IMG/VR virus record: IMGVR_UViG_3300030098_000891
Coordinates: 1 to 25,089 of that record
Strand: one strand, 5' to 3'
DNA: 25,089 nucleotides
DNA from: a virus
Positions 3,883 through 17,136 of the stretch are shown here, piece by piece. The position numbers were made by a program, and so were the translations under genes. A model generated the notes under the pieces. The model saw only the letters and a list, made by a program, of their open reading frames with translations, had not been told where the DNA came from and did no database searches. How positions within the stretch are numbered: the first letter of the stretch is position 1; each line of letters starts with the position of its first letter.

Positions 3883-5424
3883 TCATCCTAAGGCAATTGC
3901 AAGTGCAACACTATTGGCTTCTGCTGTTGCTTCAGTAGTGCCTCCAATGTCACTTAATAGTTCTGAAGCAGAACGACCCTCAATAGATGTGCCATCTACT
4001 CTTAAAAAATCATTATCAACAACACTAGCATTTGCTACCAGAACATTCCCATTTGATATACCAGTTGATAGTGTTGCTGTTGTTGTAATAGAAGTACCAT
4101 TTAATGTCATAGCATCAGCTTCTAATGTTCCATCAACATCTACATCACCAGAGATATCTAAATCTGCAAATACAGAAGTTCCAGTACCAGTTACTGTTCC
4201 TCCTACTCCTAAGTTTCCAGCAATAGTAACATTTGTTGTGCCAGTAGGAATCTCAATAACATCATTATCAGCATCATTCTTTATCGTTACATCATTAGTA
4301 GAACCTTGACCAGTTAGTATCAATCCTTCTGCACTTGTATAACCTATTGCAGCATTATCTCCAGCAGACGTATCGCCAGTAGCTTCAAGAGTTGCACCAG
4401 TTATTACACCAGAAGCAGTAAGAGCAGTTATGTTTGGACTTCCTCCTGACCCAGCAAGTGAAGCCATGTCAGCAATAACAGAGCTAGTAGCAAGTAAATT
4501 CAAATCCTCAACTATAGCACTTGTTGCCAATAAATTTAGGTCAGTAACAATATCAGATGTTGCCAATGTATTTAAGTCATTAACGATATCTGTTGTTGCT
4601 AGTGTGTTAAGGTCGCTAACTATATCATCTGTTGCTAGTTTATTTAAGTCAGCAACAATATCACTTGTAGCAAGAGTATTCAAATCGCTAACAATGTCAC
4701 TTGTAGCTAAGATATTTAGGTCTTCAACGATTGCACTTGTCGCTAGTGTATTTAAATCAGATACAAAGTCTGATGTTATTAATGAAGCAACTCCAGCAAC
4801 ACTAGAAACTGCTGATGCTATTCCAGCAACTGTTGTTACGTTAGCTTGTATGCCAGCTACAGTAGTTACGTTAGCAGAAATTCCAGCAACAGTAGTTATA
4901 TTAGCAGTTATTGCAGCTAATGAACTTACGTTAGCAATAGTTGGTCCAGCTTCGGCAGCACCAGTAGTAGCATTAAACCCAAGAACTGTTCCTACTCTAT
5001 CTGCTTTAAGAGGAAGCTCCATAGACACAGCAGAATCAGAATCTTGCAATCGTACAGATCTTCCTATTGTATCATCAACGTCAGCATCAATCGCAACCAG
5101 TTTATCTAGCTCAGTATTCAGAGAAGAAATATTAAAAGCACCTTGAGTAGGGAAGTCAGTAGTTCTCTCAAGTGCTATGTCTCTTGTTATCACTACAGTC
5201 GAGCCACCAGTAGCACCAGTAACAGACATTGAAACTGTACCAGTAGAACCATCTCCACCTGATACAGAGTAATGAGTTGTTAATGTTTTTAGTGTTCCAT
5301 CTACATAAACATTTAAATCTGCTTCAGCAAAAAACTCAAAGTTAACTGCGAATGAAGTTGTTGTTGCTCCTTGAGAAACGGCATACGAAACTCTTGGCGT
5401 GTTATTTGAAACTGATATTGTCAT
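3883..5424 (-). CDS. T7 gp17-type tail fibre with tandem repeat shaft
   Basis: A 513-aa protein whose first 145 residues follow the T7 tail-fibre N-terminal domain that attaches to the tail tube: SYAVSQGATTTSFAVNFEFF, then VYVDGT, a YSVSG strand, VVITRDIALERTTDF and the Asn-Thr-Glu-Leu-Asp-Lys helix leading to IGRSVRLQDSD. The shaft consists of five 10-residue repeats (166-215; theme VTTVAGIxAN) and nine 12-residue repeats (220-327; theme IVxDLNxLATSD). The C-terminal part (330-513) is Thr/Gly/Asp-rich with NLGVGG and DVDVDG motifs and a final helix, a typical adaptor end to which other tip proteins bind. It lies directly after the ejection proteins, as in T7. Attachment to the tail is established family knowledge; the adaptor role of the C-terminus is inference. 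Confidence 0.87.
   Translation of the reverse strand: MTISVSNNTPRVSYAVSQGATTTSFAVNFEFFAEADLNVYVDGTLKTLTTHYSVSGGDGSTGTVSMSVTGATGGSTVVITRDIALERTTDFPTQGAFNISSLNTELDKLVAIDADVDDTIGRSVRLQDSDSAVSMELPLKADRVGTVLGFNATTGAAEAGPTIANVSSLAAITANITTVAGISANVTTVAGIQANVTTVAGIASAVSSVAGVASLITSDFVSDLNTLATSAIVEDLNILATSDIVSDLNTLATSDIVADLNKLATDDIVSDLNTLATTDIVNDLNTLATSDIVTDLNLLATSAIVEDLNLLATSSVIADMASLAGSGGSPNITALTASGVITGATLEATGDTSAGDNAAIGYTSAEGLILTGQGSTNDVTIKNDADNDVIEIPTGTTNVTIAGNLGVGGTVTGTGTSVFADLDISGDVDVDGTLEADAMTLNGTSITTTATLSTGISNGNVLVANASVVDNDFLRVDGTSIEGRSASELLSDIGGTTEATAEANSVALAIALG
4444..4767 (-). repeat. Tandem 36-bp coding repeat, nine units
   Basis: Nine 12-residue units occupy residues 220-327 of the tail fibre, with the consensus Ile-Val-x-Asp-Leu-Asn-x-Leu-Ala-Thr-x-x. 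The last unit is degenerate. The DNA units differ mainly at synonymous positions, so the array is old or under selection at the protein level. Confidence 0.85.
4780..4929 (-). repeat. Tandem 30-bp coding repeat, five units
   Basis: Five 10-residue units occupy residues 166-215 of the tail fibre, with the theme Val-Thr-Thr-Val-Ala-Gly-Ile-x-Ala-Asn; the first and last are degenerate (Ser-Ser instead of Thr-Thr). They directly precede the 12-residue array. Confidence 0.8.
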
Positions 5425-12810: not shown

Positions 12811-15416
12811 TAGAATGTTACCTCCGCAATTAATGAATTAACTTGTAATGATAATGGTGCAGATTGACTAATAGAAACTTGAGGATCTTTAGAATAACCA
12901 AGCAATCTAAATTCTTTCTTACCATTAACAGGAGTTCTATCTTGACTTAAATCATCTGTAACCTGTCTAATAATCAGATCCTTAGAATTAACAGAACAAG
13001 ACAAAGTATTATTTAAATCTACAATAACTTTATTCATACTTCTTGGTTCTCCAGTTGTCGGTCCTATCTGAGATACAGTATCAATAGGATTTGTTTTCAA
13101 ATTAACATCAAACTTAAATCCTATTTCAGCTTTAGTCAAAGAACTATCTATCGCTGATACGTCAATATTCCCACTAGCAACAGTAAACTGACCAAGATAA
13201 TGAGTCCCAGAGACGACATCGAGAACTGCTCCGTTAGCGAAATCAGAGCTGACTGAGAAAACTCCGCTAGCACCATAGTAAGTTTTAGCCATATCAAGAT
13301 TAAAACTACTATCAAACTCACAAAGAATATATTTATTAGTACCATCACCTTTATCAAATTTTAATACAGCATACAGTCTTGTATCAATAGTGCAAATAGA
13401 ATGGAACGCACCTTGACTTGTAAACTGTGTCCATCCAAATCTTTGTTCTCCTCTATTTGAATTAAATACAGATAACGTACCATCTCCATCTACAATAAAA
13501 TAATAACTTTCATTACGATCAATACCACCAGCAAGTATAGTAGATCCAATAGGGGTTTTAATAAGATGAGAAGAAAGGCTTGATATAGGCTGACCAGTAT
13601 AAGCGTTCTGAGTATCGTCAAATAACATTTCTCTTACAATCTCTCCAGAGCTTTGAATATAAACAGTAGCACCATCAAACACATAAGGCTTTACATAAGC
13701 AGAACCAAAAGGAGTTTGTCTTTTAATTGTAGCATTTGTAGGGGTTGTAGGCTTCTCTATAAAAGCTGGAACAATAAATTCATCAGTAGATGTAAAGCAT
13801 TGGAGATCTCTGTTAGATACTAAATGACGAATAGTATTAACCTCTCCGATTGCGGCAGTAATATCAATAGCATCATTATCTGAAGCATCTCCTAAATCAA
13901 AGTTAAAAAACTGATTAGTTTTGCTAGACCATAACCCATCAGGCTGAGACAGAGTTCCTCCGAACCAAAGCCTATTCTGATGAAAAGTAACAGCTCCAGG
14001 ATATCCTCTTAAAGTAGAGAAGGATTGCTCAGACCAATTAGTAGCTACAGCATGAGTTTCTAAGAAAGGTGTTCCTCCTCCAACAGCAGAATCATTTGCG
14101 TTGGCGGCTGCATTAAAAGTAAATGTATTATCATCTATAACCTCAACAACAGTTCTTGCTCCGTTTATATTACTAGAAGCAATGCCACCAACTGTATTTG
14201 CATTACTTACTGTAAAAGCATCACTAGCCGAAAAACCATGATTAACAAGCGTAACTGTAATTGTAGCAACGCCATTGTCGGTTCTCATAGAATCAGCTTT
14301 TAATTTCTTTTTCAAAGCAGCTAAACAATTCCCAGTTGCTTGAGTAGTAGACTGAACAGAAGTAATAGTTATTTCTTGGTCATGGTATTTAATAGTAATA
14401 CCAACATGCTTTGAATCAGGATAATTACCACTATCTATATCTCCTGTAGTATCCCAATAAGCTTCACTTGTTGTCAGAGTGATTCCATTTCCAGAGCTAG
14501 CAGAAGGATCTAAAGTAACACCAAGATCTTGAAACTGATAATAAGGTTGGTATATTTTTGCTCCAGCCGATTGAGTGTCAAATGTAAAAGTCTCCACTTG
14601 AAAAGATGTAAGACCAGTACGAACTAACTTCCTAGTCATAAAAGATTGATGAGAAATAAACATTACATCACCTGATTGTGCGTAAGTTAATTCATGCAAA
14701 TTAGAATGTGTAATAGGAAGAGCAGCCGAACCTGTGTCTTGAGTAATAGTAGCTGCCAAACTTACTGTATTATTAGTAGCAATTTGGAATACTCTTATCT
14801 TTAAATTCTCTAATGAAACTATATATCTTTCATCATCAGAAAAAATAAATGGAACAAGTCTATGCTGTAAAACATTATCAACAGCAAAATTAGTAACAGC
14901 TAATCTGGTACTATCACTCGTTGAAACAGATTGATATCTCCCATCAAAGACATCATCTCTAACAACTGTAACCACAGCAGCCGAAGGATTCGCTACAGTA
15001 AATCCAGATATAGCATTAATAGCAGTATATAAATTATCAGCAGTTACATCATTAGATGTATTTCCTCTTACATAGTGAGTGTTACCAACAGATGCACTTG
15101 GACTACTGCTACCAGCAGTTTCAAATTCTACAGTAATTAACGTACCATCACTCTTATAAAATTTAATAGTAGAGCCAACAGGTATATTGGCATAGTCAGA
15201 AACAGTTATAGTAAAGGAAGCTTTGTCAGCAGTAGTATCAAACTCATAGATTTTAAACAATCCCGGTCTTTTAATTACTCCACCTTCAGCCCTTAAAAAA
15301 AAGTTTTCAATTTTTTGAGCCGAGTTTGTATATACTTTAGTATCGGTTCTCGATATCAAGCTAGGGCTTATTTCTCCAAACTGAAAATTAGTTAGAGGTA
15401 CTTTTGCTTTTCGCAT
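12810..15416 (-). CDS. Tail tubular protein B (T7 gp12-like nozzle protein)
   Basis: An 868-aa protein. The N-terminus LTNFQFGEISPSLISRTDTK followed by IENFFLRAEGGVIKRPG (37-53) and the central segment FSTLRGYPGAVTFHQNRLWF (466-485) followed by DGLWSSKTNQFFNFD are hallmark patterns of gp12-like proteins, which form the distal nozzle of the short tail and close the channel before ejection. It is somewhat longer than T7 gp12 (794 aa). Two segments look inserted: residues about 65-155 and about 381-450, the latter with VNHGFSASDAFTVSNANTVG and DDNTFTFNAA, typical of Ig-like decoration domains in phage structural proteins. The start overlaps the tail tube A stop as TAATG with an AGGAGG site. Confidence 0.88.
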   Translation of the reverse strand: MRKAKVPLTNFQFGEISPSLISRTDTKVYTNSAQKIENFFLRAEGGVIKRPGLFKIYEFDTTADKASFTITVSDYANIPVGSTIKFYKSDGTLITVEFETAGSSSPSASVGNTHYVRGNTSNDVTADNLYTAINAISGFTVANPSAAVVTVVRDDVFDGRYQSVSTSDSTRLAVTNFAVDNVLQHRLVPFIFSDDERYIVSLENLKIRVFQIATNNTVSLAATITQDTGSAALPITHSNLHELTYAQSGDVMFISHQSFMTRKLVRTGLTSFQVETFTFDTQSAGAKIYQPYYQFQDLGVTLDPSASSGNGITLTTSEAYWDTTGDIDSGNYPDSKHVGITIKYHDQEITITSVQSTTQATGNCLAALKKKLKADSMRTDNGVATITVTLVNHGFSASDAFTVSNANTVGGIASSNINGARTVVEVIDDNTFTFNAAANANDSAVGGGTPFLETHAVATNWSEQSFSTLRGYPGAVTFHQNRLWFGGTLSQPDGLWSSKTNQFFNFDLGDASDNDAIDITAAIGEVNTIRHLVSNRDLQCFTSTDEFIVPAFIEKPTTPTNATIKRQTPFGSAYVKPYVFDGATVYIQSSGEIVREMLFDDTQNAYTGQPISSLSSHLIKTPIGSTILAGGIDRNESYYFIVDGDGTLSVFNSNRGEQRFGWTQFTSQGAFHSICTIDTRLYAVLKFDKGDGTNKYILCEFDSSFNLDMAKTYYGASGVFSVSSDFANGAVLDVVSGTHYLGQFTVASGNIDVSAIDSSLTKAEIGFKFDVNLKTNPIDTVSQIGPTTGEPRSMNKVIVDLNNTLSCSVNSKDLIIRQVTDDLSQDRTPVNGKKEFRLLGYSKDPQVSISQSAPLSLQVNSLIAEVTF

Positions 15417-16003
15417 TAGCTCCTCCTAAAAGCACTAAATCTAGTCTGAGGTATAGTCCTAGTTGTTTGTTGTTGTGAATCTATATTCCTAGCTTTAAGC
15501 ATAGCTTGATCTGCCATCTGAGTCATCATGTTCATAAGGCTAGAATCTCTAGCAATCGAAGAAGCAAAAGCAGAAGCTAACGCATACTGCAAAGCTATAG
15601 TAAAATAACTAGGGAAATTTTCTTCTGTTGCTCTGAATGTATAGTCGGCAATTACAGTATCTTGCGTAGATGTATCTGCATAAATCATATCGCCATAGAT
15701 CTGATATTCAATCTGACCATCATTAACTGTGACTGCATGAACAATCAGAGTATCAGAAGGAAGTTGATAAGCATAATCATATCTACCAGTCGGAGCATCA
15801 GTTAATCTATTTAAAACTGCTTGATTGGTTGCAAACCTCCAACGAGTATTAGATAAAGCAGATCTGCATATATCCTCATAAAGATTAGAAGCAACAAGAG
15901 ATTCAGTAGTTCCATCTGTAAAAGAAGTAATAGGCTCTGCTCCTATAAGGATTAAAGCTCTACTTGAAATATCTATTGAACTATCTGCAACTGTTGATGT
16001 CAT
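15416..16003 (-). CDS. Tail tubular protein A (T7 gp11-like gatekeeper)
   Basis: A 195-aa protein, nearly the same length as T7 gp11. Key parts are SSRALILIGAEPITSF (13-28), LYEDICRSALSNTRWRFATN (42-61) with the conserved Trp-Arg-Phe-Ala, PSDTLIVHAV, and a C-terminal Ala/Met-rich helix ending in an Arg/Ser tail. It forms the ring that joins the portal to the nozzle. Adjacent tail tube B supports the call. Its translation start is unusual: a stable hairpin lies between the Shine-Dalgarno sequence and the ATG (see 16001-16035). Confidence 0.88.
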   Translation of the reverse strand: MTSTVADSSIDISSRALILIGAEPITSFTDGTTESLVASNLYEDICRSALSNTRWRFATNQAVLNRLTDAPTGRYDYAYQLPSDTLIVHAVTVNDGQIEYQIYGDMIYADTSTQDTVIADYTFRATEENFPSYFTIALQYALASAFASSIARDSSLMNMMTQMADQAMLKARNIDSQQQTTRTIPQTRFSAFRRS

Positions 16004-16035
16004 GTGGTAAAGGGGAGTTGCCTCCCCTTCTCCTT
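16001..16035 (-). promoter_or_regulatory. Structured ribosome binding site: hairpin between Shine-Dalgarno and ATG
   Basis: On the minus strand AAGGAG (16030-16035) is followed at once by a perfect 8-bp stem, AAGGGGAG (16022-16029) pairing with its complement at 16010-16017, capped by the GNRA tetraloop GCAA (16018-16021). Then come six bases (taccac) and the ATG (16001-16003). The linear distance from AAGGAG to ATG is 26 bases, too long for good initiation, but folding the hairpin leaves only 6 bases. Known precedents exist in phage T4 (gene 25). A second weaker GGAG lies inside the stem. There is no U-run after the stem, so a terminator is unlikely. Confidence 0.7.
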
Positions 16036-16042
16036 AATTATT

Positions 16043-16309
16043 TTAGTCGCCATCTGTTTCGACAATAGCTGTACCATCAGATACATCTACTACAGAACCA
16101 GTGTTTGATAGTACGTTTACCCAATGAGTTGTTGGAGCATTGGTATCTGAAACGCAGATAACATCACGAACACTTAACATATTTGCAGCACTATTAAAAT
16201 AACCAGCACTGTTAACAGTCGCAATTGTGTCAGATGTTGAATAGTTCCAAAGTTTCGGACCATTTCCATTCATAGACCAAAGGGTTAAACCAGAAGCACT
16301 ATAAGCCAT
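16043..16309 (-). CDS. Small virion structural protein, possible head decoration (88 aa)
   Basis: An 88-aa beta-type protein: MAYSASGLTLWSMNGNGPKL, then NYSTSDTIATVNSAGYFNSA (22-41), then MLSVRDVICV, and an acidic end. The pattern of a Tyr/Ser-Thr-Asp-Thr segment, Gly-Tyr-Phe and a following (L/V)xxxDxIxV strand is familiar from short proteins next to capsid genes of many phages. A strong AGGAGGTAA site precedes the start, 11 bases after the capsid gene, so it is probably made in large amounts like the capsid protein. A head-decoration or head-fibre role is inferred; I know no firm function for the family. Confidence 0.7.
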   Translation of the reverse strand: MAYSASGLTLWSMNGNGPKLWNYSTSDTIATVNSAGYFNSAANMLSVRDVICVSDTNAPTTHWVNVLSNTGSVVDVSDGTAIVETDGD

Positions 16310-16320
16310 ATAATTACCTC

Positions 16321-17136
16321 CTAAGAATTGTTGTCTAAGACTTCATAGAGACCATTGTCATCAATGACACATGCTCCCATAGACATCATAGAAGTTGCAA
16401 GATGAGATGCTCTTTCTGGAACATAGTTTAGTTCAGTAGAAACATCAGCATTAATTCCTAACCCAATAGCAGAGGTGTGATAAGCCATACTCTTACCAGC
16501 AGTTACAGCAGAGCTAGAGAAGATATTGAAGCCCAAGAAGTTCTTCATTGTCATTCCTCCAGCATAAGGTAAATTCTGGTCGCCAACATAGTCAGAGCTT
16601 GCAAACTCAGTAATTAAGAATAAGTCTGCAAATCCCTTCGGATGCATAGCAAGAAATCTACCACCATCTTCTGGAATATCGGCAGCACCCATTGTTTCAA
16701 ATAATGAAAGCAAGTCAGCTTTTTCAAGAGCTGAACTTGTATCATGTATCTGAGTTGAGTTAGCACCAGCATCCATAGCTGTGATTAGAAGTTCATCAGT
16801 TTTACGACCAAGAGCAGAAGCAGCCGAAGTTGCTACAGCTTGTCGTTCATTGATGTTAGTCTTTAGTTCATCCAACTTGTCGATATATTCAGCAGCATAG
16901 TAGTCAGCCATTGTTGCTTCGACAGTTGTATGAGCTAATTCCATTGGAGTCACAAGACCATTTCTGGACTTGGTACTCGCACTACCAGTTCCAATCTTCT
17001 GGAAACGTACAACGCTTCCACTCACATTGTTTGCCATTCGTACAGTATTCCGTAGCTTAGAACCCATACGCTGATAAGCAAGGTGAACTTCAGACTCGAA
17101 CTGTTTAATAAAGGCTGTGTCGATTGAATTTGCCAT
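16321..17136 (-). CDS. Major capsid protein
   Basis: A 271-aa HK97-fold-type capsid protein of the small podovirus class. It begins MANSIDTAFIKQFESEVHLA and has an N-terminal helix with AYQRMGSKLRNTVRM, the E-loop-like region around VRFQKIGTGSA, ADYYAAEYIDKLDELKTNIN (77-96), the conserved ALGRKTDELLITAMDAG and a P-domain with MKNFLGFNIFSSS. The gene order (scaffold before, small structural protein and tail tube after) supports it. A strong AAGGAG site lies before the ATG. The 85 bases upstream (17137-17221) contain no gene; this is the largest gap inside the late operon and could hold a promoter or processing site for capsid overexpression, but I see no recognisable consensus. Confidence 0.88.
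   Translation of the reverse strand: MANSIDTAFIKQFESEVHLAYQRMGSKLRNTVRMANNVSGSVVRFQKIGTGSASTKSRNGLVTPMELAHTTVEATMADYYAAEYIDKLDELKTNINERQAVATSAASALGRKTDELLITAMDAGANSTQIHDTSSALEKADLLSLFETMGAADIPEDGGRFLAMHPKGFADLFLITEFASSDYVGDQNLPYAGGMTMKNFLGFNIFSSSAVTAGKSMAYHTSAIGLGINADVSTELNYVPERASHLATSMMSMGACVIDDNGLYEVLDNNS

Follow-up and report, generated by a model that had tools for sequence, protein, structure and literature searches.

A probable hairpin-bridged ribosome-binding site at the tail tubular protein A gene of an uncultured marine podophage lineage

The window, by which we mean the whole stretch of DNA analysed, is a phage record of 25,089 bases. The genes of known type listed for it (terminase, portal, major head protein, tail tubular protein A or ttpA, TtpB-like protein and tail genes) all lie on the minus strand, and an 88-aa gene is listed with them. 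The ttpA gene is placed between the major head protein and 88-aa genes on one side and the TtpB-like gene on the other. The stop codon of the 88-aa gene and the ATG of ttpA are separated by 39 nt, which hold a Shine–Dalgarno (SD) sequence, a hairpin and a short linker. A preliminary description of the locus listed an SD, an 8-bp stem, a GCAA loop, six bases and an ATG and named no strand; read on the minus strand, its coordinates match and both geometry and positions are exact.

16321..17136, minus strand: major head protein gene (phrog_3437)
16043..16309, minus strand: 88-aa gene (phrog_18004, function not known), upstream of ttpA
16030..16035, minus strand: Shine–Dalgarno sequence AAGGAG, within TTAAGGAGA; duplex with the anti-SD (aSD) of -9.2 kcal/mol
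16022..16029, minus strand: 5' arm of the stem, AAGGGGAG (from sequence, folding and covariation)
16018..16021, minus strand: GCAA tetraloop of the GNRA class (from sequence and the loop census)
16010..16017, minus strand: 3' arm of the stem, CTCCCCTT (from sequence, folding and covariation)
16004..16009, minus strand: linker TACCAC, 6 nt, leading to the start codon, with neither an SD nor a U-run
16003-16001, minus strand: start codon ATG of ttpA
15416..16003, minus strand: ttpA, tail tubular protein A, 195 aa (phrog_394, E 7e-41)

In minus-strand order the element thus reads TTAAGGAG, AAGGGGAG, GCAA, CTCCCCTT, TACCAC, ATG, with the stem and loop occupying 16029-16010. The end of the SD lies 26 nt from the ATG in the linear sequence and 6 nt from it when the hairpin is left out; unless the hairpin is folded, the distance of the ttpA SD from its start codon is 25-26 nt. 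Neighbouring genes with a strong SD mostly carry it 4-8 nt from the start: the head protein has CTAAGGAGC at a spacing of 7, the 88-aa gene TAGGAGGTA at 5 and TtpB TAGGAGGA at 4. The SD of ttpA is similar in strength to those of these structural genes, and the earlier suggestion that the hairpin sets the stoichiometry between capsid and tail proteins gains no support from it. For the aSD the canonical 16S tail, ACCUCCUUA, was assumed.

The segment 16001-16035 is predicted to fold at -18.8 kcal/mol (z = -5.2), and none of 200 dinucleotide shuffles folds as well. When both strands are scanned over the whole window, the ttpA hairpin comes out as the most stable simple hairpin (-13.8, the next place reaching -11.0) and as the only one with an SD-like sequence on its 5' side and a start codon on its 3' side. 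The minimum-energy fold adds a G.U pair and, with an A/A mismatch in between, joins GG in the SD to CC in the linker. This extra pairing leaves the SD about half paired in the predicted ensemble (mean unpaired probability 0.48); the core SD lies outside the conserved stem. Rfam covariance models gave 0 matches to the element at the gathering score and 0 at E values up to 1.

We scanned viral contigs with four ttpA queries, taking the best 80 of 549, 192, 281 and 134 matches, and added four annotated records. Contigs duplicated across scans were merged by sequence only. Removal of 7 loci without a start codon, of loci with less than 65 nt upstream and of identical leaders gave 132 distinct leaders. 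Among the matches listed, 70 of the 132 have the order SD, hairpin, ATG (the window, L054 to L224 and others), with ttpA identity to the window down to 62% among the contigs compared. A further 24 leaders, close kin of the window with 77-93% ttpA identity, are stemless; 35 belong to a sister group, the lineage around pelagiphage Hodr (the Hodr lineage), and have a hairpin with no SD beside it; and 3 (MEP301, Baldr and MT838907) form a distant set, all again among the matches listed. The total of 70 includes L164, a leader with a loop over 14 nt that the hairpin finder missed and that was assigned by eye, so that loop and fold counts refer to 69 leaders; the spacing counts also exclude L171 (weak SD of -4.6, 10-nt linker) and refer to 68. 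Across the natural variants the stem ranges over 7-11 bp, the loop over 3-14 nt and the linker over 6-11 nt. Seven more leaders from cultured or public phages (L305-L311) were kept outside the 132; in one of them, L307 (MW202742.1), the ttpA homologue at 401-967 is annotated as 'major capsid protein'.

Base pairing in the stem is maintained through sequence change, and the covariation that the preliminary description proposed as a check is found in the relatives. It was scored on 19 distinct 20-nt cores of hairpins with four-base loops only (alignment A5), pairs being numbered from the loop outward. All 8 of the 8 stem pairs have changed on both sides. Double-change cells number 33, against 8.5 in shuffles and at most 7 in slid registers, and 98.7% of cells are paired, against 79.8% in shuffles. 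The choice of sequences favours this percentage, since only unbroken stems pass the finder, and affects the double changes less. Double changes, paired cells and the covariation score each exceed 500 of 500 shuffles and every slid register, and the number of pair types in the same cores is not above the shuffles (13 vs 12.3). Of 51 leaders, 36 have A-U at position 7 and 15 have G-C, with no mixed combinations. On the ttpA tree this pair has undergone at least 6 changes and the closing pair at least 9; these and all other tree counts given here assume that there was no recombination, which could inflate them. Among four-base loops, 43 of 51 are GNRA or UNCG (17 and 26, respectively), the two classes of stable RNA tetraloop, and exchange between them is expected of an RNA structure and not of a DNA palindrome. 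In alignments A1 and A4 part of the rows were misregistered, and neither entered the counts; A2 was used by eye only. For the Hodr lineage (A3) RNAalifold gave no consensus and MAFFT left rows out of register, and hairpins were judged singly.

In the 68 scored leaders the hairpin is 18-36 nt long and the linear distance from SD to ATG, 25-43 nt, tracks this length (r 0.93). Once the hairpin is excluded, the distance stays at 6-11 nt and hardly depends on hairpin length (r -0.18). As the SD abuts the stem, the hairpin-excluded distance is approximately the linker, and only the constancy of the linker counts as independent evidence. Linker length has changed at least 16 times on the tree, under the same assumption, and always within 6-11 nt. 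The aSD energy on the 5' side of the stem averages -8.2 and is -5.1 or better in 68 of 68 leaders; in the linker it averages +2.2 with a best value of -0.8, and an SD is found in the linker of 0 of the 68.

The arrangement is tied to ttpA. The 219 loci (1.09 Mb, among the matches listed) contain 809 hairpins of -11 kcal/mol or better, 162 of them at the ttpA start; with strict thresholds, 0 of the 647 lying elsewhere in these loci have SD, hairpin and start in order. With looser limits (-9 kcal/mol, aSD of -5 or better) the arrangement is present in 104 of 209 unique ttpA loci among the matches listed. The same limits, applied to ten contigs of relatives of 31-37 kb, of which two (G001 and G010) belong to the stemless set, return 8 ttpA sites and 5 other candidate matches, in which the start that comes first is GTG in four and ATG in one. 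In L087, L089, L158 and L171 the end of the upstream sequence resembles that of the major head protein (LDNN stop), and it seems that the 88-aa gene is absent there and the module stays with ttpA.

In the stemless leaders the upstream stop codon overlaps or nearly touches the ttpA ATG, as TAATG or TAANNATG. Near relatives with no stem and a normally spaced SD, which the preliminary description regarded as counter-evidence, do not occur among the 24 stemless leaders of the matches listed (0 of 24; aSD energy of -3.5 or weaker). SD, hairpin and spacer are instead absent together in 24 of 24 of these leaders. The stemless state requires at least 3 changes on the tree, 2 of them forced by well-supported branches, and the base of the stemless clade consists of window-type leaders, so that the loss seems to have been repeated. 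Hairpin and SD were apparently lost together at least twice, and the element is therefore dispensable. No intergenic replacement hairpin is found in the stemless clade; a recurrent strong hairpin near -334 lies inside the coding end of the capsid gene, and the stem-bearing L002 and L032 have, by eye, much the same sequence in that region.

Other hairpins occur at the same border. In the Hodr lineage (L082, L225-L304) the ttpA ATG is preceded, at 8-21 nt, by a strong hairpin that has an SD on neither side; SD spacing is thus not necessarily what a hairpin at ttpA is for. In the more distant YeP5, Pseudomonas phage AF and MT838907, ttpA is preceded by a U-run hairpin and then by a separate, normally spaced SD-like sequence. 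Taken with the Hodr hairpins, these suggest that a hairpin at the capsid/tail border may predate the arrangement with an SD and may once have served, or still serve, transcription or mRNA stability. Of the annotated records involved, L082 (OQ414635.1, Hodr) carries EXVC032PBaldr tags and L084 (OQ414636.1, Baldr) EXVC031PHodr tags; the locus tags of the two look swapped.

Folding of RNA between an SD and its start codon has precedents in T4, where, according to the review PMC3014915, structure shortens the spacing of gene 25 from 27 to 11 nt and that of gene 38 from 22 to 5 nt. The same review describes reporter and DMS evidence for the split site of gene 25 (work of Nivinskas and Malys), a fall in initiation upon destabilising mutations, and a gene 25 arrangement confined to close T-even phages. 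The element before ttpA shares three features of such sites that can be tested in sequence: the linear SD–AUG distance is over-long, the hairpin restores a functional spacing, and no alternative normally spaced SD is present. Because of these features we assign it to a known kind and infer its function: it is probably a split ribosome-binding site of the T4 gene 25/38 type, in an uncultured marine podophage lineage. The hairpin probably folds away excess RNA and so places the SD correctly for the ttpA start, as the matched mutations and the constant distance from the start suggest. The 30S subunit would bind the SD while the hairpin stays folded and held aside, and the ATG, then 6 nt from the SD in space, would be used as a normal start. 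We infer that the hairpin keeps its fold on the ribosome and that this folding raises ttpA translation. The proposal of the preliminary description that the hairpin rescues a distant SD has the backing of covariation, a constant linker beside a variable hairpin, an SD-free linker and the exchange of GNRA and UNCG loops. Against a split site count the SD-less hairpins of the Hodr lineage, the apparent joint losses of hairpin and SD, the half-paired SD of the predicted fold, the changes in linker length and the weak SD of L171.

Several other explanations can be set against a split ribosome-binding site. The hairpin might terminate or attenuate transcription, or stabilise the 3' end of the capsid mRNA, with the adjacent SD incidental, and the U-run hairpins with separate SD-like sequences of YeP5, AF and MT838907 and the SD-less hairpins of the Hodr lineage are what this explanation would lead one to expect. 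In T7 the late terminator Tphi lies between the capsid and tail genes, and the ttpA hairpin resembles both it and the U-run hairpins of the three distant phages in its position between a capsid or decoration gene and ttpA. It differs from late terminators in lacking a U-run and in having the SD on the 5' rather than the 3' side of the stem. The tail in the window, TACCACAT, has no U-run and the hairpin is absent from the list of the terminator scan; only 4 of 69 SD-hairpin leaders carry at least 5 T among the first 8 bases beyond the stem, although U-run terminators occur elsewhere in the contigs of 9 of 10 relatives (15 in all). On these grounds a terminator was rejected. A terminator moreover requires neither an SD abutting the 5' side nor a linker of 6-11 nt to the ATG, and no hairpin replaces the lost one between the genes of the stemless clade. 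We regard this broader explanation as unlikely, and repression of ttpA by a fold that masks its SD, which might act as an RNA thermometer or a coat-protein operator, as somewhat less likely still. The half-paired SD of the window fits such repression, but the pairs involved lie outside the covarying stem and the CC is missing from most relatives' linkers. At 15 °C as well as at 37 °C the stem is predicted to be folded, with a probability of at least 0.94 in 69 leaders, and the sequestration of the SD by a melting stem that marks an RNA thermometer is not seen at these temperatures; temperature sensing, raised in the preliminary description, is unlikely on this modelling. Conservation of loop class without conservation of loop sequence argues against a protein-bound loop.

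The module could, alternatively, insulate ttpA from the ribosomes of the upstream gene or re-couple it to them, the hairpin blocking or stalling re-initiating ribosomes. The stop-start overlaps of the stemless relatives are compatible with this, as is the closeness of the upstream stop to the SD, which in several leaders follows it within a few nt. Neither the abutting SD nor the constant linker is explained, however, and the module stays with ttpA in the four leaders where the capsid gene itself seems to lie next upstream; we consider this account about as improbable as repression, or slightly more so. That the hairpin is due to chance or is a neutral palindrome is very improbable. The element is indeed missing from 24 close relatives, but its z of about -5 and the excess of double changes, paired cells and covariation score over all 500 shuffles and all slid registers contradict a chance origin. 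A further scenario, which we offer tentatively and consider doubtful as a whole, is that in this marine lineage the ribosome accommodates a folded tetraloop hairpin at a tail gene, that SD-hairpin-ATG and the SD-less stop-start overlap are initiation modules exchanged for one another at this single site, and that the hairpin may derive from a terminator between capsid and tail genes through loss of the U-run and acquisition of a 5' SD.

Gene 25 of T4 is, like ttpA, a structural gene of a tailed phage, and in both a hairpin shortens an over-long SD–AUG spacing (by 16 nt to 11 nt in T4, and from 26 to 6 nt at ttpA). Unlike gene 25, the ttpA site belongs to an unrelated podophage gene and is described here from sequence; its stems are GC-rich, its loops are mostly GNRA or UNCG, and its loss takes the form of a stop-start overlap. 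Gene 38 is the nearest match in numbers to the ttpA site, but it is another gene in another type of phage, and the mutational evidence is from T4 only. Our partial search of the literature, which covered few subscription papers, found no report of a hairpin of this kind, whether for ttpA or for marine podophages. The natural ttpA variants constitute a large comparative set from which the features kept constant by selection can be read, and as ready-made variants they turn the holding of a hairpin between the SD and the P site of the 30S subunit into a testable structural question. They also call for caution with gene finders and ribosome-binding-site predictors that score linear spacing only.

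The ttpA hairpin can also be read on the opposite strand. There, in L097-L109, L158 and L175-L201, TCTCCTTTTT-like runs, which are complementary to the SD, come after it, and on its sequence it looks like a weak antisense terminator. Among the tail genes of the window, minus-strand ORFs of 74 and 72 aa at 752-976 and 2609-2827 are nearly identical in their C-terminal half (WKTYRQALRDLPK...LDMSSVTFPTKPS) and are seemingly duplicates. The tail protein at 3883-5424, also on the minus strand, contains many repeats of the DLNTLATSDIV type.
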